From contig CACBEJ010000007.1 of the NCBI GenBank assembly GCA_902538255.1, forward strand, positions 1 through 37,891: a stretch of DNA of 37,891 nucleotides, given 5' to 3'. This document shows, in pieces, positions 1-21,053 of this stretch. The DNA comes from an uncultured Pelagibacteraceae bacterium. Lineage in GTDB: Bacteria; Pseudomonadota; Alphaproteobacteria; Pelagibacterales; Pelagibacteraceae. Position numbers and translations under genes: made by a program. Below the pieces are notes generated by a model. It was not told the origin of the DNA. It made no database searches and saw only the letters and a list, made by a program, of their open reading frames with translations. Numbering within the stretch: the first letter of the stretch is position 1; the number at the start of each line of letters is the position of its first letter.

Positions 1-1357
1 AAACTTAACAACAACTATCAGAAATTACTTCAAAGAAAAAAATATTAAAATCAATAATATAAAGATAGAAAATCAAAATATTTTTTTTAATGTAATAGAA
101 AATGATAAACAATCTGTCTTAGAAGTTTTTCAGGACGAAAATAGCGATCTTAATCCTTATTACCCAAGATTTAAATCACATCAGTTAGAAATTGAAGACA
201 CGGGGTTAAATTTTAAAGTTAATTTTTCAAGACAGGGTATCATTAAACTTAAAACTTCTTCTCAAGATCAAGCTATAGAGATAGTTAGAAGAAGGGTAGA
301 TGAGGTTGGAACTAATGAACCCAACATCCTTAAAAGAGGAAATAGTCGAATTTTAGTAGAGCTACCTGGATTAGATGATCCGATGAGAATAAAATCATTA
401 CTTGGTAAAACTGCAAACCTTACTTTTCGATTTGTAACAAATGATGAAAATGATCGTTTTGGTGTTGAAAAGTTAAAATTTGAAAATGATCTAGAAGAAG
501 CAACAGTTAGTAAAAGAATTATAATAAGTGGTGAAAATTTACTCGATGCCCAACCAAAAATGGACACTCAAACCAACCAAACAATTGTTTCATTTACATT
601 AGATAGAGTAGGTGCAAAGAGATTTGGTAAGGCAACATCAACTGGTATTGGAAAGCAATTAGCAATTGTTTTAGATGGTAAAATTATTAGTGCACCTGTA
701 GTTAGAGATACAATTGCAAGTGGATCTGGTCAGATAAGTGGTGGTTTCACTTTTCAAACAGCAACTGATCTAGCTTTATTATTAAGATCAGGAGCGTTAC
801 CTGCACCACTAGAAATAATTGAAGAAAGAACAGTAGGCCCAGATCTTGGACAAGATTCAATTAATGCAGGAATGATTGCTTTAGCAATAGGATTTATTTT
901 GGTTATAATTTTTATGTTCGTAAAATATAAAATTTTTGGATTAATTACCAATGTAACATTGATAGTTAATTTATTTATTCTTTTGGGTGTTTTAAGTTTA
1001 TTTGAAGCTACTTTAACGTTGCCTGGTATAGCAGGTATTATTCTGACCGTAGGTATGGCTGTTGATGCAAATGTTTTAATTTTTGAGAGGATTAAAGAAG
1101 AACTAAAAGATGAGACTAATAATATTATAGCTTTTGATGGTGGTTATACTAAATCAAGAACAGCAATTTTAGATGCTAATATTACCACATTATTAGCAGC
1201 AATTATTTTGTTTTTCATGGGCTCAGGTCCAGTCAAAGGTTTTGCTGTAACCTTAGGAGTTGGAATATTTACAACACTATTTTCAGTCTATTTCATAGCA
1301 AGATTGTTCACTAGTATTTATGTATCAAAAAATAAAGATAAGGAAAAATTAATATAA
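1..1357 (+). CDS. secD: SecD, protein translocase subunit (5' end missing)
   Basis: SecD is the inner-membrane RND-like subunit that, with SecF, uses the proton motive force to help proteins exported by SecYEG emerge in the periplasm. The frame is open from base 2, so the gene begins before the window; the first in-frame ATG at 383 is internal because clear SecD periplasmic sequence (for example IVRRRVDEVG and LPGL) precedes it. The C-terminal half carries the P1 head region (ISAPVVRDTI, SGGFT), then hydrophobic membrane helices including the SecD/F signature GMAVDANVLIFERIKEE. The TAA stop overlaps the secF ATG by one base (TAATG), implying translational coupling. I see nothing broken in the part present. 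Confidence 0.96.
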   Translation, partial: NLTTTIRNYFKEKNIKINNIKIENQNIFFNVIENDKQSVLEVFQDENSDLNPYYPRFKSHQLEIEDTGLNFKVNFSRQGIIKLKTSSQDQAIEIVRRRVDEVGTNEPNILKRGNSRILVELPGLDDPMRIKSLLGKTANLTFRFVTNDENDRFGVEKLKFENDLEEATVSKRIIISGENLLDAQPKMDTQTNQTIVSFTLDRVGAKRFGKATSTGIGKQLAIVLDGKIISAPVVRDTIASGSGQISGGFTFQTATDLALLLRSGALPAPLEIIEERTVGPDLGQDSINAGMIALAIGFILVIIFMFVKYKIFGLITNVTLIVNLFILLGVLSLFEATLTLPGIAGIILTVGMAVDANVLIFERIKEELKDETNNIIAFDGGYTKSRTAILDANITTLLAAIILFFMGSGPVKGFAVTLGVGIFTTLFSVYFIARLFTSIYVSKNKDKEKLI

Positions 1358-2247
1358 TGATTGCATTTAATAAATATTATAATCATTTTAATTTATTATC
1401 TTCAGCATTGATTGTTGTTTCATTATTATTATTAATATTCAAAGGACTTAATTTTGGTATAGACTTTAAAGGTGGAACATTAATTGAATTAAGAGCCTCA
1501 GACTCAAAAATAAATGTTAGTTCATTAAGAGATAGATTTAACCAAATGGATTTGGGAGATGTTTCGGTTAAGAAATTTGGTAATGACACTGATTTTTTAG
1601 TAAAATTTGAAAATAAAGACAATAAGAAAAATATCATTGAAGAAATTAAAGTTAATTTAGATAAATCTTTTGGAAGCAACTATGATTTTAGAAGAGTTGA
1701 AAATGTTGGACCAAAAGTTAGTGCTGAGTTATTAAAATCAGGAGTAATAGCAATATCTTTGTCATTGGCATTAATGCTGATTTACATTTGGATTAGATTT
1801 GAATGGCAGTTTAGTCTAGGTGCAATTTTAGCTTTGTTCCATGATGTTATTGTAACTCTAGGTGTTTTTTCATTATTTAGTTTGGAAATTAATTTATCAA
1901 TTATAGCAGCAGTATTAACAATAGTTGGATATTCAATGAATGATACTGTTGTAATTTTTGACCGTGTTAGAGAAAATCTTAGAAAATATTCTGATATTAA
2001 GATTTTTGAATTAACAAATATTTCAATTAATGAAACGTTATCAAGAACTATAATTACATCTGCAACTACTTTACTAGCTTTATTAGCAATTTATTTTTTT
2101 GGTGGAGAAATATTAAAAGGATTTTCATTAGCAATGATACTTGGCGTTGTTTTCGGAACCTATTCATCCATTTATATAGCTAATACTGTTTTAGTTAGAC
2201 TAAAAGTTTCACAAAAAACTGTACTTAGAGAAAACGATAAAAAATAA
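1357..2247 (+). CDS. secF: SecF, protein translocase subunit
   Basis: SecF is the partner of SecD in the SecDF-YajC accessory complex of the Sec translocon. At 296 aa it has normal length. It shows an N-terminal membrane helix followed by the FGIDFKGGTLIELR signature, a short periplasmic domain, and five C-terminal helices with the family motif GYSMNDTVVIFDRVREN. The start overlaps the secD stop by one base. Downstream, the stop lies one base from the stop of the convergent PuuD-type gene, with no visible terminator hairpin between them, typical of this compact genome. Confidence 0.97.
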   Translation: MIAFNKYYNHFNLLSSALIVVSLLLLIFKGLNFGIDFKGGTLIELRASDSKINVSSLRDRFNQMDLGDVSVKKFGNDTDFLVKFENKDNKKNIIEEIKVNLDKSFGSNYDFRRVENVGPKVSAELLKSGVIAISLSLALMLIYIWIRFEWQFSLGAILALFHDVIVTLGVFSLFSLEINLSIIAAVLTIVGYSMNDTVVIFDRVRENLRKYSDIKIFELTNISINETLSRTIITSATTLLALLAIYFFGGEILKGFSLAMILGVVFGTYSSIYIANTVLVRLKVSQKTVLRENDKK

Positions 2248-2899: not shown

Positions 2900-4321
2900 C
2901 TAATTTAAAAGAGGTTTTAAAAATTGACCTGTGTAGCTGTCTTTAACCTTACATACTTCCTCAGGTTTACCTTCGGCGACAATTTTACCACCTTTTACAC
3001 CACCCTCTGGTCCCATGTCTACAATGTAATCTGCCGTTTTAATTACATCTAAATTATGTTCAATAACAACTACTGTATTCCCAAGTTTTACAAACGTATG
3101 AAGAATCTCCAATAGTTTTTTAATATCATGTTGATGTAACCCTGTTGTTGGTTCATCTAATATATACATTGTTCTTCCAGTTGATCTCTTCGACAATTCT
3201 TTTGCTAATTTTATTCTCTGAGCCTCACCACCTGATAGTGTTGTTGCTTGTTGCCCAATTTTTATATAACCCAATCCAACCTTTTTTAAAGTTAGCAGTT
3301 TTGTTTTTATATTTGATATATTTTCAAAATACTCACAACCTTCATCAACAGACATATCTAAAACATCGGCAATACTTTTTCCTTTAAATTTTATTTCTAA
3401 AGTTTCTCTATTATACCTTGTTCCCTTGCACTCATCACATTGTATATAAACATCAGGTAAAAAATGCATTTCATATGTGATTACACCATCACCTTCGCAA
3501 GCTTCACATCTACCTCCTTTTACATTAAATGAAAATCTACCTGGTTTATATCCTCTTGTTTTGGATTCAGGCAAACTTGTAAACCAATCTCTAATAGGTC
3601 CAAAGGCTCCTGTGTATGTTGCTGGATTTGATCTAGGTGTTCTCCCAATAGGAGATTGATCAATATCAATTATTTTATCAATTAATTCTACTCCTTTATA
3701 ACCTTTAAATGATTTAGGTGCTTTTCGAGCTTTATTATTTAAAGTTAAATTTAAGGCGTGGAATAGTGTTTGTAATATTAGAGTAGATTTACCACTACCC
3801 GAGACACCAGTAACGCAGGTAAAAGTTCCAGTTGGAATTTTAAGATTAACATTATTTAAATTATTTCCACTTGCACCATTAATTTCAACAAATCGTCCAT
3901 TTTTAGCCAAACGTCTTGACTTAGGTATTTCAATTATTTTTTTATTTGCAAGATACTGTCCAGTAATACTATTTTTATCTTTTTTAATTTCCTCATATGA
4001 TCCTTGGGCTGTTATCTGGCCTCCATTGCTCCCAGCCTCAGGGCCTAGATCAATAATATGATCTGCATTCTCCATTGTCTCAGTATCATGCTCAACAACA
4101 ATAACGGTATTACCAAGATCTCGTAATCTTTTTAATGCGCTAATGAGCTTTACGTTATCTTTTTGGTGCAATCCAATTGAAGGTTCATCTAAAACATATA
4201 ATACACCTGTTAAACCAGATCCAATTTGTGAAGCTAATCTTATTCTTTGAGCTTCACCACCTGATAAAGTTCCAGATTCTCTTGATAATGTTAAATAATC
4301 TAAACCAACGTTTAAAAGAAA
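2900..4321 (-). pseudogene. uvrA: uvrA C-terminal half, 5' end lost at the serS junction
   Basis: UvrA is the ATPase damage sensor of UvrABC nucleotide excision repair, normally about 940-950 aa. Only about 473 codons are present. The frame opens at 4321 with residues [19 protein letters not shown], which in intact UvrA sit near the middle, just before the first ABC signature. Present are signature I ([12 protein letters not shown]) and Walker B I ([13 protein letters not shown]), Walker A II (GVSGSGKST), the second zinc module (CX2C-X19-CX2C in GGRCEAC...QCDEC), signature II and Walker B II ([13 protein letters not shown]). Missing are Walker A I, the UvrB-binding region and the first zinc module. 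In-frame TGA at 4324-4322 closes the frame in serS sequence. The ATG at 4171 lies mid-domain and is not a credible start. As drawn, the product cannot be functional UvrA. Confidence 0.9.
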
Positions 4322-5567
4322 TCAATTCCAAATTATTCATATACGGCCGTAGTACCTTTGGAACAACAATCGAACCATCTTTTTGTTGATAGTTTTCAAG
4401 TACAGCAATTAAAGTTCTACCCACAGCTAAACCGCTTCCATTTAATGTTCCAACAAAAACAGTTTCCTTATTTTTATTTTTATATCTTGATTTCATTCTT
4501 TGTGCCTGAAATGTTGAACAAGAAGAGCAAGATGATATTTCACGATATTTGTTTTCTGATGGTAACCACACTTCAATATCATAAGTTTTTTCAGCACTGA
4601 AACCCATATCACCTGAGCACAAAATTACTTTTCGATAAGGTAACTCCAACTTATCTAGAATATCTGTTGCACATTTAGTCATACGCTCTAATTCATCTAA
4701 ACAATTTTCTTTTTCAACAATACTTACCAGCTCAACTTTATAAAATTGATGTTGTCTAATCATCCCTTTTGTATCTTTCCCATAACTTCCAGCTTCTTTT
4801 CTAAAACATGGGGTTGAAGCAACAAATCTCATAGGTAATTCTTTTTGATCAACAATTTTATCTTTAACAATATTAGTTAATATTACCTCTGCTGTTGGAA
4901 TTAAAAATTTTCTATCAGATCCTTGATCAAATTTTATTTCAAATTGATCGTTTTCAAATTTCGGTAATTGTCCTGTTCCATACATTGTATTATCAGAGGC
5001 TATTAATGGAGGTGAAATTTCTTGATAACCATTTTGAATAATATGAGTATCTAGCATAAAATTAGATAAAGCACGTTCCAATAATGCTAGCTCTTTTTTT
5101 ACAAATACAAACCTTGACCCTGTTGTTTTTGTTGCAAGATCAAAATCTAGCATGCCTAAATTTTCACCGAGTTCATAATGGGATTTAGGTTTAAAATCAA
5201 ATTCAGGAATTTTACCAGCTTTTAAAACTTCCACATTATCATTTTCATCTTTTCCATTTGGAACATCTTGATGTGGTATGTTTGGTATACTAGATAAAAT
5301 TTTATCTAATTCAGTTTTGGTATTTTTTTGTTGATCAGAAATCTTCTCTAATTCCGTAGATATTTCTTTAGATTTTTTAAATAGACTTTCATCTTTAGAT
5401 TTTGAAATATCTTTTTTTTCTTTTTCTAAATTTTCTTTTTTTAGTATTAAATCTCTATTTAACTTATCAAGTTTTTTTAAATTATTAAAATCAATTGTAA
5501 CCGAGCGTTTTTCAAGATCTTTTTCAAATTTCGAAAAATCTTTTCTTATTTCTTTTAAATTATGCAT
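4254..5567 (-). CDS. serS: Seryl-tRNA synthetase with an artificial C-terminal tail
   Basis: SerRS charges tRNA-Ser (and tRNA-Sec where present) with serine in the cytoplasm. The first roughly 110 residues form the long lysine/glutamate-rich coiled-coil arm. The class II core follows, with motif 2 around [20 protein letters not shown] and motif 3 [17 protein letters not shown], ending in the normal-looking C-terminus [13 protein letters not shown] near 4314. About 18-20 further codons (starting KRWFRLF) are out-of-frame uvrA sequence, so the native stop has been lost at the junction. The catalytic domain itself is intact. The start overlaps the tatC end by 8 bases, fitting an operon tatA-tatB-tatC-serS. 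Confidence 0.93.
4311..4321. other. Abnormal junction joining serS 3' end to mid-uvrA
   Basis: Read on the minus strand, the SerRS frame encodes the normal C-terminus ([15 protein letters not shown]) and, within about ten bases, the sequence becomes the middle of uvrA in another frame (LLNVGLDYL). The shared bases TTCTTTTAAA make sense in both genes, so the exact crossover falls inside a short stretch that probably represents microhomology. There is no transposon end, target duplication or repeat at the site. Either a genomic rearrangement or an amplification/assembly chimera would produce this. Confidence 0.85.
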
Positions 5568-14427: not shown

Positions 14428-14825
14428 TATTTTGATTTACATTTTTTACATAAACCAAAAAATTCTAAATTGTATTTGTTATATTTCATTCCGGAGTTAT
14501 CTGAAAAATTAGATAAATATTTTGATAGTTTTGAATTACTTATCTCAGATACATTTTCACAACTTTCACAAATTGAAAAAGCGGTAGCTTTTGAAATTTG
14601 ACAACTAGAATTTTGACACGCAATAAAAGCATTTCTACTTTCAATCTTATGAATTTTACCAATTTCTACTAATTTATCTAAAGCTCTGTAAACTTGTAAT
14701 GGCGCTTTAATTCCCTTTTTTTGAACATTAAAAAGAATTGAATAAGCTTTCATGGGGCCACGAGATTTATCAATCAAATCAAAAATAATTTTTTGGTTTT
14801 TTGAAAGATTGTGTTGTTTTTCCAT
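14427..14825 (-). CDS. zur: Zur, Fur-family zinc uptake regulator
   Basis: Zur represses zinc uptake genes when loaded with zinc. The 132-aa protein has the Fur winged-helix N-domain (AYSILFNVQKKGIKAPLQVYRALDKLVEIGKIHKIES) described here by its ends at about residues 22-59, then metal-binding cysteines. Two CXXC pairs, ICESC and LCKKC, fit the structural zinc site. The sensory region reads KIHKIESRNAFIACQNSSCQ, where the usual downstream histidines are absent and cysteines appear instead, a small departure from textbook Zur. Its position directly after znuCB and the palindromes before znuC/znuA favour Zur over Fur, Mur or Irr. Confidence 0.88.
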   Translation of the reverse strand: MEKQHNLSKNQKIIFDLIDKSRGPMKAYSILFNVQKKGIKAPLQVYRALDKLVEIGKIHKIESRNAFIACQNSSCQISKATAFSICESCENVSEISNSKLSKYLSNFSDNSGMKYNKYNLEFFGLCKKCKSK

Positions 14826-14839
14826 TTTTAAATTTCCTA

Positions 14840-15643
14840 TTAGTTTTTTAATTTAATCGATTGTTTAATTTTAAACAAAGATAATATGAATAATATCAAT
14901 GCTGCTGCTATAATTGAAGGTCCTGAAGATGTATTAAATTCTAATGAAGAATATAGTCCTAAAATAACTGATAATAACCCACCAATTATAGAGAATAGAA
15001 CCATTTTCTGAGGGCTATCAGAGATATTTCTCGCCATTGCTGCAGGGATAATTAACATACCTGTAATCAATAATAATCCAACCATTTTAATTGAAATAGC
15101 AATAACAGCTGCCATTAATATTGTAAATATAGCTTTTGCTCTATCGGGGTTTAAACCTTCTGCCTCTGCTAATTCATAATTTACAGTTGATGCAAGTAAA
15201 GGTTTCCAAATTAACTTAAGCACAATTAAAATTAAAGCTCCACCTGTCCAAATCACAAACAAATCATCAGTATTTACCGCTAATATATCACCAAATAATA
15301 AACCCATAATATCAAATCTTATAAATGTGAGAAAACCAATAACTACCAATCCAACAGCTAATGATGAATGTGCTAAAAGACCTAATAATGCATCACCAGG
15401 AAGATTAGTTTTTTTCTGAAGCTGAATTAGTATTAATGCAATGACTGATGAAATTAAAAATACTGAAATAGCAATGTTTAAATCAAATGTATAAGCCATT
15501 GTTACTCCAAGAAGAGCGGAGTGTGCAAGCGTATCCCCAAAATAAGACAATCTTCTCCACACAACAAAACATCCAAGTGGACCAGTTACAAAAGCGATTC
15601 CAATACCTGCAACTAGTGCTCTTATAAAAAAATCATCAAACAT
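14840..15643 (-). CDS. znuB: ZnuB, zinc ABC transporter permease
   Basis: This is the membrane channel of the high-affinity zinc importer. The 267-aa polytopic protein has about eight hydrophobic segments and the ABC-3 family blocks GPLGCFVVWRRLSYFGDTLA with HSALLG following, LLGLLAHSSLAVGLV, and KMVGLLLITGMLIIPAAMAR. Its ATG is immediately adjacent to the znuC stop, and zur begins 14 bases after its end, so all are one transcription unit. Specificity for zinc (not manganese) is inferred from Zur and the His-rich ZnuA. Confidence 0.94.
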   Translation of the reverse strand: MFDDFFIRALVAGIGIAFVTGPLGCFVVWRRLSYFGDTLAHSALLGVTMAYTFDLNIAISVFLISSVIALILIQLQKKTNLPGDALLGLLAHSSLAVGLVVIGFLTFIRFDIMGLLFGDILAVNTDDLFVIWTGGALILIVLKLIWKPLLASTVNYELAEAEGLNPDRAKAIFTILMAAVIAISIKMVGLLLITGMLIIPAAMARNISDSPQKMVLFSIIGGLLSVILGLYSSLEFNTSSGPSIIAAALILFILSLFKIKQSIKLKN

Positions 15644-16390
15644 TTAATTTTTCTTTATTTCTCCTTCATCAGAATGAACATGATCATGTTTGTGCTCATA
15701 CGTTGTTAAAATTTGAGATGCTTTTTCACCAAATAAAGCTTTATATTCATTATTTTTCGCTACATACGATGGTGAACCTGAACAACAAACATGGCCATTT
15801 AAACAAATTACATGATCCGTTGCTGACATCACCATATGCAGATCATGAGAAATTAACAATATTCCACAATTTAAAGTATCAGATATTTTTTTAATTAATT
15901 CATACAAAGCAATTTCGCCTGTATAATCAACTCCCTGTACTGGTTCATCTAATACTAATAATTCTGGTTTTTTAGAAATTGCTCTTGCAATTAAAACTCT
16001 TTGAAATTCACCACCAGATAAACTACCCAAATTTTTATTTTTAAGATGAATTACACCTGTTAGTGATAATGCTTCATCAATAGCACTGTCTTCTATAGTT
16101 TCTGTTAAAAGCATAAAATCATAAACTCTAATAGGTAAAGTCCAATCTATTGAAATTTTTTGGGGAACATAACCAACTTTAGTTGTATATTTTTCAACAC
16201 TGCCCTCAATATTTTTATAAATTCCTAAAGCAATTTTAGCAGTAGTACTTTTCCCAGAACCATTTGGGCCAATGAGGGTTACAATTTTACCCTTTTCAAC
16301 CGTAAGAGAAACACCTTCTACTAACCATTTTTCACTTTGGCGAAAACCGGCATTATTTAATTTAACTAAAATATTACTATTAGAATTCAT
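15644..16390 (-). CDS. znuC: ZnuC, zinc ABC transporter ATPase
   Basis: The 248-aa nucleotide-binding subunit powers ZnuB. Walker A is GPNGSGKST, the signature is LSGGEFQRVLIARA, Walker B is LLVLDEPVQGVD, and the switch histidine is in LLISHDLH. The C-terminus is histidine-rich (YEHKHDHVHSDEGE), a feature that may bind zinc locally (inference). It is the first gene of the minus-strand zinc operon, starting 71 bp from the divergent znuA, and the intervening DNA contains two Zur boxes. Confidence 0.95.
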   Translation of the reverse strand: MNSNSNILVKLNNAGFRQSEKWLVEGVSLTVEKGKIVTLIGPNGSGKSTTAKIALGIYKNIEGSVEKYTTKVGYVPQKISIDWTLPIRVYDFMLLTETIEDSAIDEALSLTGVIHLKNKNLGSLSGGEFQRVLIARAISKKPELLVLDEPVQGVDYTGEIALYELIKKISDTLNCGILLISHDLHMVMSATDHVICLNGHVCCSGSPSYVAKNNEYKALFGEKASQILTTYEHKHDHVHSDEGEIKKN

Positions 16391-16397
16391 TTAACCC

Positions 16398-16426
16398 TTG
16401 ACTTGTAAATGTTATATTATTACATA
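16398..16426 (+). promoter_or_regulatory. Candidate znuA promoter overlapping Zur box 1
   Basis: TTGACT at 16398-16403 and TACATA at 16421-16426 are separated by 17 bp, giving a reasonable -35/-10 pair for znuA. The first Zur palindrome occupies the spacer and -10, and the second covers the expected transcription start, so bound Zur would block RNA polymerase. Start site inferred only. Confidence 0.55.
16410..16424. promoter_or_regulatory. Zur box 1 in znuC/znuA intergenic region
   Basis: TGTTATA T TATTACA is a 7-1-7 inverted repeat with one mismatch. It resembles the known Zur operator core TGTTATA-N-TATAACA of proteobacteria. Its centre is 18 bp from that of box 2, close to two helical turns, which suggests two Zur dimers on nearly the same face. 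Confidence 0.82.
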
Positions 16427-16427
16427 G

Positions 16428-16442
16428 TGTTATATTATAACA
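16428..16442. promoter_or_regulatory. Zur box 2, perfect palindrome
   Basis: TGTTATA T TATAACA is a perfect 7-1-7 palindrome matching the proteobacterial Zur operator core. It lies 20 bp upstream of the znuA ATG and about 38 bp from the znuC start, so it can control both divergent units. Confidence 0.88.
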
Positions 16443-16461
16443 ACCAATTAATAGTGTATTT

Positions 16462-17553
16462 ATGAAAAATTTAAAAAAACTACCAATAATCATATCAATT
16501 TTATCCTTATTTACTTTTTTTCTACCAGCTAGTGCTGATATTAAAGTAGTTGCCTCAATTAAACCAATACATTCGTTAGCTAGTTACCTTATGAATGGAG
16601 TGGCTAAACCTGATTTAATTGTAGATGGATATGCTTCTCCACACGGTTTTGCAATGAAACCATCTCATGCAAAAATGTTGCAAAATGCAGATATAATTTT
16701 TTGGGTTGGTGAGGATTTAGAAAATTTCCTAGAAAAACCATTAGGATCGATTGCTAAGAAAGCTGAAAAAATTGAATTAATGCAAGTTAAAGGTCTTCAA
16801 GTTTTAAAATTTAGAGAAAGAAATATTTTTGATGATCACGATGATCACGGACATGATGATCATGGTAAAAAAGACGACCACGACGATCACGACCACGATT
16901 CACATGCAAAGAAAGATGACCACGACGATCATGGACATGACGATCATGGTAAAAAAGAAGATCATGATGACCACGACCACGACTCTCATGCTAAAAAGGA
17001 TGATCATGATGATCACGATGATCATGATGGGCACGAAGGTCATAACCATGGTGAATTTGATCCACACATCTGGTTAGATCCTATTAATGCAAAAGTAATT
17101 CTATTTGAAATGTCTAAACATCTAATTGAGAATGACCCAAAAAATGAGACAGTCTACAGAGCTAATTTAAGTAAGGCATATAAAGATATTGATAAACTAA
17201 CAAGCGATGTAACATCTGAATTAAATGAAAGTGTAGCTTCAATTGTTTTTCATGATGCTTATCAATATTTTGAAAAAAGATTTAATGTAAATATATTGGG
17301 TGCTTTTACAGTGAATACAGATGTCATGCCTGGTGCAGAACAATTAGCTGAAATCAGAGAAGTAATCGAACATGACAATGTAGCTTGTGTATTTTCAGAG
17401 CCTCAATTTAATCCTGATATTATTAAAGCAGTGGCAAAAGATATGAATATAAAAACTGGTGTAGTTGATCCTTTAGGAGCAACTCTAAATCCTGGGAAAA
17501 CATTATATTTTGATCTAATTAAAAACATGTCTGCGTCATTTAAAGGTTGTTAA
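16462..17553 (+). CDS. znuA: ZnuA, periplasmic zinc-binding protein with long His/Asp loop
   Basis: ZnuA captures zinc in the periplasm and delivers it to ZnuBC. The 363-aa precursor starts with a signal peptide (hydrophobic to about residue 25, PASADIKVV). Zinc ligands expected of the family are visible as histidines in SPHGFAMKPSHAKML, DPHIWLDP and FHDAYQYF, and the acidic ligand region near VVDPLGA. Between the two lobe-forming parts lies a 74-codon His/Asp-rich loop (residues about 124-197) built of repeated 14-residue units. His-rich loops are common in ZnuA, but this one is long and highly ordered. The protein ends in a single cysteine. It is monocistronic from the sequence and controlled by the Zur boxes just upstream. 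Confidence 0.95.
   Translation: MKNLKKLPIIISILSLFTFFLPASADIKVVASIKPIHSLASYLMNGVAKPDLIVDGYASPHGFAMKPSHAKMLQNADIIFWVGEDLENFLEKPLGSIAKKAEKIELMQVKGLQVLKFRERNIFDDHDDHGHDDHGKKDDHDDHDHDSHAKKDDHDDHGHDDHGKKEDHDDHDHDSHAKKDDHDDHDDHDGHEGHNHGEFDPHIWLDPINAKVILFEMSKHLIENDPKNETVYRANLSKAYKDIDKLTSDVTSELNESVASIVFHDAYQYFEKRFNVNILGAFTVNTDVMPGAEQLAEIREVIEHDNVACVFSEPQFNPDIIKAVAKDMNIKTGVVDPLGATLNPGKTLYFDLIKNMSASFKGC
16831..17052 (+). repeat. Tandem 42-bp coding repeats in znuA (14-aa His/Asp units)
   Basis: Four 42-bp units at 16831-16872, 16873-16914, 16915-16956 and 16957-16998 encode an A-B-A-B pattern: DDHDDHGHDDHGKK, DDHDDHDHDSHAKK, DDHDDHGHDDHGKK, EDHDDHDHDSHAKK. A degenerate tail rich in DDH and GH follows. 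Copies 1 and 3 encode identical residues yet differ at four codons; copies 2 and 4 differ at nine synonymous positions and one replacement, so the peptide pattern appears maintained after duplication. Confidence 0.9.
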
Positions 17554-17586: not shown

Positions 17587-18126
17587 ATGAAAATAAATGT
17601 TAATGATAAATTAGAAGAAATTACACTACCAGATCAAAATGGTAACACATTTAATTTATCTCAGACTTTAGGAAAAAAAGTCTTATTAACTTTCTATAGA
17701 ATTGCTGGTTGTAGCTTCTGCAATCTAAGACTTAATGAAATTAATAAGAGATTTGGTGAGCTTGGAAATAACTTTACGCATGTCGGAATATTTCATTCAC
17801 CAGTAGATAATTTAAAATTATATATGGATAAACATAAAAATTTACCATTCACAGTATTAGCAGATGAAAATTTTGAATATTTCCAAAAATATGAAATTGA
17901 AAGATCAATGAGTAAAACAATCAATGCAATGTTGTTTAAGCCACATAAAATTATTCCTGCTATGTTAAAAGGATATATTCCAACAAGAATAAAAGGTCAT
18001 TTAGATATAGCTGTAACTGACGTTCTAATTAATGAGGTTGGTGTAGTTCAAGATGTTTATTATGCTAAAAAGGACATTGCAGATCATTTTGAATTTGAAA
18101 AAATTAAGCAGTTTGCACTTAATTAA
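17587..18126 (+). CDS. Peroxiredoxin-like (AhpC/TSA-fold) protein
   Basis: This 179-aa thioredoxin-fold protein begins with an AhpC/TSA-type segment (ITLPDQNGNTFNLSQTLGKK, then VLLTFYRIAGCSFCNLRL). The active site is a CXXC, Cys42 and Cys45 (GCSFC), rather than the single peroxidatic cysteine of classical peroxiredoxins, which places it in the peroxiredoxin-like group of uncertain substrate. No signal peptide is seen, so it should be cytoplasmic. It is followed 7 bases later by another thioredoxin-fold gene; the pair probably forms one transcript. Peroxide or disulfide reduction is a reasonable guess, not shown. Confidence 0.8.
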   Translation: MKINVNDKLEEITLPDQNGNTFNLSQTLGKKVLLTFYRIAGCSFCNLRLNEINKRFGELGNNFTHVGIFHSPVDNLKLYMDKHKNLPFTVLADENFEYFQKYEIERSMSKTINAMLFKPHKIIPAMLKGYIPTRIKGHLDIAVTDVLINEVGVVQDVYYAKKDIADHFEFEKIKQFALN

Positions 18127-18133
18127 ATAAATA

Positions 18134-18727
18134 ATGAAAATTGAATATTATTTTAGTGTCTTGTCTCCATTTACTTATTTAGGTGCTGATAGATTTACAA
18201 AAATAGTAAGTCAATATAATTTAGAAGTAATAGAAAAACCACTTGATTTAGTTGGTGAAATTTTTCCAAATACCGGAGGATTACCAATTCCTAAAAGACA
18301 CCCTGCAAGACAAAAGTACAGACTTTTGGAAATGGAGAGAATTTCAAATAAATTAGGTTTGCCAATTATTAAACAGCCAAAATTTTTTCCACCTAGTGAT
18401 CCACATTTGCCAGCAAAATTTGTAATCGCCTCAAATAAAATGGGAAATAAACTTCATTTTGGAAATGAGTGTTTAAAATATTTATGGTCTATGGATAAAG
18501 ATCTTTCAGATCACAAAATACTTCAGGAAATTTGTGAAAAATTAAATTTAAATTTTGAGGAAATGAAGAACTTAGCTTTAACTGACGAAGTAAACATTGA
18601 GTACCAAAAAAATTCAAAAGATGCAGTTAATAACCATGTATTTGGTGCTCCTTCATATGTCTTAAATAATGAGATTTTTTGGGGTCAAGATAGATTAGAT
18701 TATCTTGAAGATGCATTAAATAAATAA
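18134..18727 (+). CDS. 2-hydroxychromene-2-carboxylate isomerase-like DsbA-family protein
   Basis: This 197-aa protein begins MKIEYYFSVLSPFTYLGADR, the signature of the kappa-class GST/HCCA isomerase branch of the DsbA family, in which the serine of the S-P motif replaces the CXXC and binds glutathione. The C-terminal FGAPSYVLNNEIFWGQDRLDYLE block is also typical. In aromatic degraders the homologue NahD isomerises 2-hydroxychromene-2-carboxylate; no naphthalene genes occur here, so a different glutathione-dependent role is likely. It sits 7 bases after the peroxiredoxin-like gene. Confidence 0.85.
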   Translation: MKIEYYFSVLSPFTYLGADRFTKIVSQYNLEVIEKPLDLVGEIFPNTGGLPIPKRHPARQKYRLLEMERISNKLGLPIIKQPKFFPPSDPHLPAKFVIASNKMGNKLHFGNECLKYLWSMDKDLSDHKILQEICEKLNLNFEEMKNLALTDEVNIEYQKNSKDAVNNHVFGAPSYVLNNEIFWGQDRLDYLEDALNK

Positions 18728-18813
18728 TTAAAAATTACTAAATTTTATTAATAATTTAATTAAACATTGTATTTTTTAATAAGAAGATTTATTTTTATTT
18801 ATAACCTACATTT

Positions 18814-19695
18814 ATGAATGATTTTAATTTATTTAAAAGAAATGGCTTTCTTGTTAAAGAAAATCTAATTTCTCAAACAAAGATAAATAAAATAAATAAA
18901 ATTGTTAATGAAGTAATTTCAAAAGAAAAAAAAAGAAAAAAAGGTAATGGTGCAAATGGAACTCAGTCCTATGATAATTACCATTTTGTCTACAATTCAG
19001 GTTCTTCAAAAAATAAAGAAATTTTAAGACTTAATAATCCTCAGAATAGGCATAAAGTTTTCTATGAATTATCTAGAGATAAAAAGATTATATCCATAGC
19101 TAAAAAATTATTAGGTGGAACAGTAAGATTTCATCTAGGTAAATTAAATTTTAAACTACCAAATAAGAAAAAAGGTAGTGAAATTGGATGGCACCAAGAT
19201 TGGGCTTTTTACCCTCATACAAACGATGATTTAATTACAGTTGGTATATATTTAGATGATTGCTATGAAAAAAATGGGCCGCTTAAAATAATAAAGAATT
19301 CACACAAAAAGAAATTGTACAGTCACCACAGCAAAGAAAATTATTTTGTTGGAAAAATAGACACTAAGAAAAATAAAATAGGAACTAAGGATAGTGTTTC
19401 CATAACTGGGACGGCCGGAACAGTGGTATTTTTTCATTGTAGATCAGTTCATGGGTCTGGACACAATCAAATGAATAACTCAAGACCCTTAATTTTATTT
19501 GGTTATAGAGCTTGTGACGCGTGGCCATTAATCAATGATGGAAATCCTCATCCTGAGGTTGATTTGGAAAATTATGACAAAAATATAATTGTAGGAAATA
19601 AATCAATAAAACCAAGATTGACTAAAGTTCCAACCATAATCCCACTGCCTAAGAAGAAACATTATGTTTCTATCTATGAACTTCAAAAAAATTAA
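18814..19695 (+). CDS. Phytanoyl-CoA dioxygenase (PhyH) family protein
   Basis: This 293-aa protein is an Fe(II)/2-oxoglutarate-dependent oxygenase of the PhyH family. The metal triad is visible as the HXD in GWHQDWAFYPHT and a distal histidine in VVFFHCRSVHGSGHN, with a following arginine in SRPLILFGYRACDAWP that could bind 2-oxoglutarate. No signal peptide or membrane segment is present. It begins after an 86-bp AT-rich gap and is followed at 56 bp by the small membrane protein, so it may be transcribed alone. The substrate cannot be deduced; the family includes ectoine, phytanoyl-CoA and other small-molecule hydroxylases. Confidence 0.88.
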   Translation: MNDFNLFKRNGFLVKENLISQTKINKINKIVNEVISKEKKRKKGNGANGTQSYDNYHFVYNSGSSKNKEILRLNNPQNRHKVFYELSRDKKIISIAKKLLGGTVRFHLGKLNFKLPNKKKGSEIGWHQDWAFYPHTNDDLITVGIYLDDCYEKNGPLKIIKNSHKKKLYSHHSKENYFVGKIDTKKNKIGTKDSVSITGTAGTVVFFHCRSVHGSGHNQMNNSRPLILFGYRACDAWPLINDGNPHPEVDLENYDKNIIVGNKSIKPRLTKVPTIIPLPKKKHYVSIYELQKN

Positions 19696-19751
19696 ATCAC
19701 ATTAAAGTTTATTGTAATAAATCTTTAACAAAACATTCATATAAATTTTGA

Positions 19752-19976
19752 ATGTCATTTTTAAAAAAATATCTCAAATGGATCAGTACATTCTTAGTGT
19801 TAACTGGTATTTTACTTACAAATCTTAATATTTACCCACTGAATATTTATTTTCATGGGCTTGGAGTTGTTGGATGGACAATTTCAGGTTTCTTATTAAA
19901 GGATAAGGCTATTTTAACAAATTTTGGATTGCAAATTCCATTATTTGTAATTGGTATTTATAAAATTATTTTTTAA
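19752..19976 (+). CDS. Small membrane protein of unknown function
   Basis: This 74-aa protein consists almost entirely of three hydrophobic segments (about residues 10-25, 32-47 and 55-74), including YFHGLGVVGWTISGFLLKDKA. I do not recognise a named family with confidence. Its last base overlaps the first base of the arsC-type gene (TAATG), so it belongs to the same transcription unit as arsC and the aquaporin-like channel. A role in arsenic handling is possible only by association. Confidence 0.72.
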   Translation: MSFLKKYLKWISTFLVLTGILLTNLNIYPLNIYFHGLGVVGWTISGFLLKDKAILTNFGLQIPLFVIGIYKIIF

Positions 19977-20407
19977 TGAAAAATATTTTATTTGTATGTA
20001 CAGGTAATTCAGCAAGAAGCATTATTGCTGAGAGTATTATCAATAATGAATACTCAAATAAATTTAAAGCTTTTAGTGCTGGTAGTAATCCATCAGGAAA
20101 AATCAATATTGATGTTAGAAGTTTTTTAGAGAAAAATAAAAATTATGATCTAACTAATTATAGTTCTAAAAACTTTGAAGAGTTTTTAAATAATGAAATA
20201 ATGATGGATCACGTAATAACGGTATGCAATAACGCAAATAATGAGGTATGTCCTATTTGGCCTGATAAAAACCAAATTATACACTGGGATATAGACGATC
20301 CAGTAACTAAACTTCAAAATGCAAATGACGAAGAAAAGCAAATAATCATTAGAAACACTTTTAATATTATAAGCAATAAAATTAAAGATTGGCTAGATGA
20401 AAAATAA
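19976..20407 (+). CDS. arsC: Arsenate reductase, low-molecular-weight phosphatase (thioredoxin-coupled) type
   Basis: This 143-aa protein has the CX5R phosphatase loop at residues 8-14 (CTGNSAR), the acid loop HWDIDDP, and two further cysteines at 84 and 92 in ITVCNNANNEVCPIWP. The three-cysteine layout matches the ArsC family that reduces arsenate to arsenite with thioredoxin and distinguishes it from plain protein tyrosine phosphatases. It is coupled to the small membrane protein (1-base overlap) and overlaps the channel gene by 11 bases. No arsR, arsB or acr3 lies in the window. Confidence 0.88.
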   Translation: MKNILFVCTGNSARSIIAESIINNEYSNKFKAFSAGSNPSGKINIDVRSFLEKNKNYDLTNYSSKNFEEFLNNEIMMDHVITVCNNANNEVCPIWPDKNQIIHWDIDDPVTKLQNANDEEKQIIIRNTFNIISNKIKDWLDEK

Positions 20408-21053
20408 AAATAGATATTTTCTTTCAGAGTTTATTGGAAGTTGCTTCCTGGTAATGATGATAGTTGGATCAGGTTTAATGGCAGAAAATCTTACCAATGA
20501 TACAGCGGTAATGCTAATTGCAAATACTATAGCAACTGGAGCTGGATTATTTGTGTTAATAACTGTTTTTGCAGATGTATCTGGAGCTCATTTCAATCCA
20601 TTTGTAAGTATTGCTATGACAATTACAGGAAAGTTAAAAAAACGTCTTCTACCCTTTTATATTTCAGCTCAGATCCTTGGATGTTTACTAGGTGTGGCTT
20701 TAGCTAATTTCTTTTTTGAACATCAAATTTTTGAATTATCGACAAAATCAAGAGATGGCATCTATATTTTTGTATCAGAAATTGTTGCTACATTAGGACT
20801 AATAATCATTATTTTTGGATCCATGAAGTCAGGTAAAATTACCGTAGCTGCATCTGTTGGGTTATATATTACAGCTGGTTATTGGTTTACTTCATCAACA
20901 TCGTTTGCAAATCCTGCTGTTGCAATAGCAAGAACATTCACAGAGTCGTTTACTGGTATAAGTTATTTAAACACTCCTTTTTATATAGTTGCTGAATTGA
21001 TTGGTATGTTGATTGCTGTGTATTTGGTAAAAAGGATTTTCTTAAATAAGTGA
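20397..21053 (+). CDS. Aquaglyceroporin-family channel, AqpS-like
   Basis: This 218-aa MIP-family channel has six hydrophobic segments and two half-helix motifs: NPF at residues 67-69 (HFNPFVS) and NPA at 172-174 (ANPAVAIAR). The position after the second NPA, usually the selectivity-filter arginine, is valine. From memory, the arsenic-associated AqpS of Sinorhizobium has a similar valine, and it works with ArsC by letting arsenite leave the cell down its gradient. The 11-base overlap with arsC supports that role here. The 3' end overlaps the convergent phoB end by 12 bases. Confidence 0.87.
   Translation: MKNKNRYFLSEFIGSCFLVMMIVGSGLMAENLTNDTAVMLIANTIATGAGLFVLITVFADVSGAHFNPFVSIAMTITGKLKKRLLPFYISAQILGCLLGVALANFFFEHQIFELSTKSRDGIYIFVSEIVATLGLIIIIFGSMKSGKITVAASVGLYITAGYWFTSSTSFANPAVAIARTFTESFTGISYLNTPFYIVAELIGMLIAVYLVKRIFLNK

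Follow-up and report, generated by a model that had tools for sequence, protein, structure and literature searches.

The window analysed here, 37,891 bases long, is the whole of contig C7 of a Pelagibacteraceae assembly (1.08 Mb in 43 contigs, 82.8% complete, 0.29% contamination), and close to one of its ends a seryl-tRNA synthetase gene, serS, continues without a stop codon of its own into mid-uvrA, both genes lying on one strand. Starting from that end, secD (1-1357, plus strand) is truncated at base 1, where the contig ends, and is followed by secF (1357-2247, plus strand), a native neighbour lying between serS and uvrA; both were delimited from reading frames and comparison with the related genome G022. 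The minus strand then carries a membrane protein gene with a Urate_ox_N match (2249-2851), placed as a native neighbour of uvrA by frames, Pfam and the G022 order, the 3' half of uvrA comprising about codons 478-950 (2900-4321; family search, tblastn and Pfam), and a serS open frame of 437 aa whose tail is altered past the junction (4254-5567; translation, TIGR00414, and Pfam Seryl_tRNA_N and tRNA-synt_2b). Read along the minus strand, the order is tatC, serS and the uvrA 3' half, with the switch at 4321-4318, after ATTTC. The names tatC, yajC, secD, secF, ssb, gyrA and znu were given from a look at the sequence, without a family search.

The change to SerRS itself is small. The protein spans TIGR00414 positions 1-418 of 418 in the profile search, and only its last two native codons and stop have been swapped for 20 residues, where the G022 protein ends in ELISTK and a stop. 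Alignment blocks against G022 abut at window positions 4318 and 4321. Because serS reads ATTTC and then A or G in all 15 relatives shown, the sequence shared by the two sides comes to 4 nt, TTTC (4318-4321, minus strand), with the window genome's own native serS and uvrA bases judged from those relatives; uvrA at this point has TTTC or a variant, and the bases past TTTC agree with uvrA. A sequence-only reading of the same DNA had proposed a crossover of about ten shared bases, TTCTTTTAAA, which the 15 relatives shorten to these four. Its description of a SerRS C-terminus that passes into mid-uvrA with loss of the serS stop and of roughly the first half of uvrA matches what lies at 4321-4318 and the tblastn start of uvrA at about codon 478 of 950. 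A SerRS-UvrA fusion protein was rejected: the two genes are read in different frames, which means that no such protein is encoded, and a TGA stands in the uvrA frame at 4324-4322; the fusion that had been suggested thus holds for the DNA and fails for the protein. The uvrA frame is open from the junction to its stop, and the family match (positions 447-923) overshoots the junction by about 84 bases upstream and hence shows two TGA codons.

Gene order in relatives gives the arrangement against which the window can be read. At about 88-92% DNA identity to the window here, G022 has tatC, serS, yajC, secD, secF and an acyl-CoA synthetase-like gene in one direction, then the membrane protein gene and uvrA in the other, followed by ssb and gyrA again in the first; the closed genome G012 and genome G006 are collinear with that order, without a gap of the size of the synthetase gene. 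Of the series surE, pcm, yajC, secD and secF expected after serS, the last three are found in G022, while surE and pcm are not, yajC coming directly after serS. The opposite strand of secD-secF beyond the uvrA fragment is seen in the window as described, and the convergent serS and uvrA of relatives agree with the inverted block order that was read from it. Among the matches listed for 61 searched genomes, counted by eye and with some of the weaker matches left out, serS and uvrA lie on opposite strands in 48 of the 50 genomes that have both on one contig, the two same-strand exceptions being the window genome and G031; in G047 the genes are on separate contigs. Wherever a named locus has a serS match (67/67), the two genes are again convergent, their ends about 3.4-6.2 kb apart; these loci belong to a set of 80 loci chosen regardless of serS, and the other 13 have no serS match within the stretch covered.

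Orientation was screened with 36.5 kb of G012 as the reference. The sequences compared were the window, the 80 named loci and 12 of 17 other stretches; blocks of at least 250 bases were counted, and at least 300 bases were required on the minority strand (L074 and L079 were left out; L071, L189 and L190, which are the reference or overlap it, stood outside the screen). A change of orientation appeared in none of the 80 named loci and in two of the 13 other sequences, namely the window and G031. Against G012 the window has two such changes, one at 4318-4327 and one framing a fur-znu block at 14435-17553. By these comparisons, the window holds a serS-uvrA segment joined in inverted orientation relative to its relatives.

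The junction is private to one genome. A 25-mer across it, searched with up to 3 mismatches, was found in 1/399 genomes sampled from the larger genus group, namely the window's own, and a clade-wide rearrangement was rejected on the absence of the pattern from all the others; none of those sampled has the same junction, the join in G031 lying at other breakpoints. A query with 12 kb of the G022 locus found no match in the window genome for two stretches: 569 bases after the end of serS, with yajC and the start of secD (L069 4423-4991), and 1,845 bases from mid-uvrA into ssb (L069 11347-13191). Contig C19 of the same genome begins at L069 13192, just past the second gap. The native distance between the joined points would be about 4.9 kb (4318 + 569 bases). 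Neither the family search nor the G022-locus query found the first half of uvrA in the assembly, and the family search found no further uvrA copy near its cut-off. The reciprocal junction was not found in the assembly either, but the whole stretch is missing from this 83% complete assembly.

We regard it as highly probable that the join arose by strand switching during multiple displacement amplification (MDA), as an inverted chimera from single-cell DNA amplification that was carried into the assembly. The window genome is inferred to be a single-cell amplified genome from the form of the assembly and from the names of its nearest records: 77 of the 80 nearest named records, counted by eye, have single-cell-style names, the forms AG-, AH- and AAA795 presumably denoting sorted single cells. 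What is observed is an inverted join, its absence from the other sampled genomes, the overlap, the spacing, the missing flanks and an undecayed uvrA half. In the molecular steps that we infer, a strand made by phi29 polymerase would copy tatC and serS up to '...GGAATTGATTTC' and then be displaced, its 3' end (TTTC) would re-anneal within uvrA on an opposite-sense single strand about 4.9 kb off, and it would be extended back towards serS. The product would read serS, the uvrA 3' half, the membrane protein gene and, reversed, secF and secD. If recovery of the true neighbours was poor (yajC with the 5' end of secD on one side, the 5' half of uvrA and most of ssb on the other), the chimeric path would have remained the sole path and the contig would end soon after.

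Published MDA chimeras offer a close parallel. Lasken & Stockwell 2007 (PMC1855051) amplified a single E. coli cell by MDA and found that 406 of 475 chimeras were inverted, that their segments tended to lie less than 10 kb apart, and that more than 70% of junctions had 2-21 nt of complementarity; a second study (PMC5372508) puts segment distances mainly within 5 knt and more than 95% of overlaps at 3-13 nt. The window is alike in its second segment being inverted relative to the native order, in an estimated distance of about 4.9 kb, and in an overlap of 4 nt as judged from relatives, and its junction is confined to one of the genomes sampled and flanked on both sides by sequence that was not recovered. 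It differs in that the chimeras of those studies are reads, whereas here the join has been assembled into a 37.9-kb contig. The single-cell workflow of SCGC gave 1.5 misassemblies per 100 kb on benchmark cultures (cited in PMC11247762), a figure that includes misassemblies of every kind. Some points speak against the amplification artefact: the absence of any orientation change in the 80 named loci means that such joins are uncommon here in published contigs, and two inverted joins, in the window and in G031, hit the same gene pair.

The second of these joins lies on G031 contig C13 (L070 13511-14973), where serS and the 3' part of uvrA meet on one strand and the contig ends soon after, in an assembly without a whole seryl-tRNA synthetase match. 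It resembles the window in this layout, in a short overlap, estimated from relatives at about 8 nt (AGAAAAAT), and in the nearby contig end. Its breakpoints differ, with serS cut at about codon 316 vs the last codons in the window, and uvrA starting from about codon 440 vs 478; on G022 coordinates, about 113 bp in uvrA and 302 bp in serS separate the alignment ends of the two joins. We therefore take it as an independent event. The sole SerRS match in G031 is the cut serS piece (profile 1-323 of 418), and a single SerRS is present in each of G022 and G012. Since the join cuts the only SerRS match, it is hardly a living arrangement, although a second copy may be absent from this assembly, which is only 76% complete; secD, secF and gyrA likewise gave no match in its assembly. 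By analogy, this suggests that such joins can arise in these assemblies without being living arrangements. That G031 hits the same gene pair is partly ascertainment, because genomes outside the named set were examined with serS-uvrA queries and other joins would have gone unseen.

A real and very recent chromosomal inversion, running from the last serS codons to mid-uvrA by microhomology-mediated end joining or replication template switching and destroying uvrA, is the main competing explanation, and we consider it very unlikely. In its favour, the break falls in the last two codons of serS, an essential gene that might tolerate a 20-residue tail. A single 2.4-kb gap separating the ends of C7 and C19 could account for the missing stretches, in which case a real inversion would leave the same contigs, and another block in this genus does appear to have been truly inverted. 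Against it stand the single occurrence among the 399 sampled genomes, an assembly that yielded neither the reciprocal junction nor the uvrA 5' half at 82.8% completeness, and the join in G031, alike in form and hardly viable for a living cell. The state of uvrA bears on its age. The remaining half has a dN/dS of 0.012-0.020 against 16 relatives, which among themselves have a median of 0.017 and a range of 0.006-0.027 (120 pairs), and neither dN/dS nor the open frame reveals relaxed selection or extra lesions in it; it is under normal purifying selection and is not decaying. A long-broken gene would show relaxed selection, so this opposes an old inversion only, and a break within this very cell would leave no trace in dN/dS.

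The repair genes point the same way as the uniqueness of the junction. The UvrA_inter and UvrA_DNA-bind domains are missing from the window's half and present in the complete G022 protein (Pfam), but uvrB and uvrC are retained whole on other contigs of the window genome, and uvrA is above its family cut-off in 53/61 genomes and matched in 18/18 of those at least 90% complete. The cell very probably had an intact uvrA, and serS and uvrA were most likely intact and convergent in it, as in relatives. Of the choice first offered between inversion and chimera, only the chimera finds support, and the suggestion that this cell lacks UvrABC repair finds none. Had it been right, a streamlined ocean bacterium would have lost nucleotide excision repair via a small inversion; this one contig is no sound basis for claiming a loss of UvrA or of excision repair. 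Still less credible is a pure assembler error without a chimeric molecule, which we think extremely improbable. Misjoins generally occur in assemblies of uneven coverage, but an overlap of just 4 nt is much shorter than the word lengths that assemblers normally use and would not suffice for them to make a join. Reads across the junction would then be expected to exist, and a physical chimeric molecule is therefore likelier than a software misjoin. We give just as little credence to the serS-uvrA interval of SAR11 being a recurrent inversion site in living cells, hit independently in the window genome and in G031, that yields transient, uvrA-null and mutation-prone ocean cells. In sum, the join is very probably no real feature of the organism, and it shows that draft SAR11 assemblies can carry inverted gene joins that resemble biology.

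Since uvrA is cut in several relatives, a hotspot of assembly breaks within it was also considered, and it was set aside, as no clear one emerged. In 35 of the 80 named loci, 46 contig ends were placed (26 towards serS, 20 towards gyrA), and they scatter over about 20 kb; this set could not include ends inside the uvrA 3' half, and the positions of three of its ends (L158; L123, serS side; L155) were extrapolated across stretches of 972 to 8401 bases that did not align. In nine further genomes with a cut uvrA (G007, G013, G017, G021, G025, G030, G041, G046 and G053), the gene stops at most 44 bases from a contig end.

The native interval varies in gene content. Between secF and the uvrA neighbour, G022 has a 653-aa acyl-CoA synthetase-like gene (L069 7302-9263), so named from a look at the sequence. 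At this place about 2 kb of G024 went unmatched; the window, G012 and G006 have no such stretch. Contig C1 of the window genome holds a stretch 72% identical to the G022 gene.

Further along the window, the fur-znuB-znuC / znuA block (14435-17553; Fur by Pfam, the znu names being our assumption) has the orientation opposite to that in closed G012 and in the seen part of G031 and agrees with G022 and G006, with both ends at gene ends. It is probably a real inversion polymorphism in the genus. The block, about 3 kb long, resembles the serS-uvrA join in lying in opposite orientations in different genomes of the genus; unlike that join, it has both junctions present and at gene ends, and the window shares its orientation with G022 and G006, as a real inversion would lead one to expect. 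Next to it, positions 17610-19703 are 96.5% identical to G022 vs about 88-89% in the adjoining blocks, which suggests recent recombination there. At 19704-21041 a LMWPc-family protein, which we take to be arsenate-reductase-like, lies beside a MIP channel (Pfam), a pair absent from G022 at this place. Within the block, what we take to be a ZnuA-like protein (16462-17553) has long His-Asp-rich repeats and is 363 aa long, vs 370 aa in G031.
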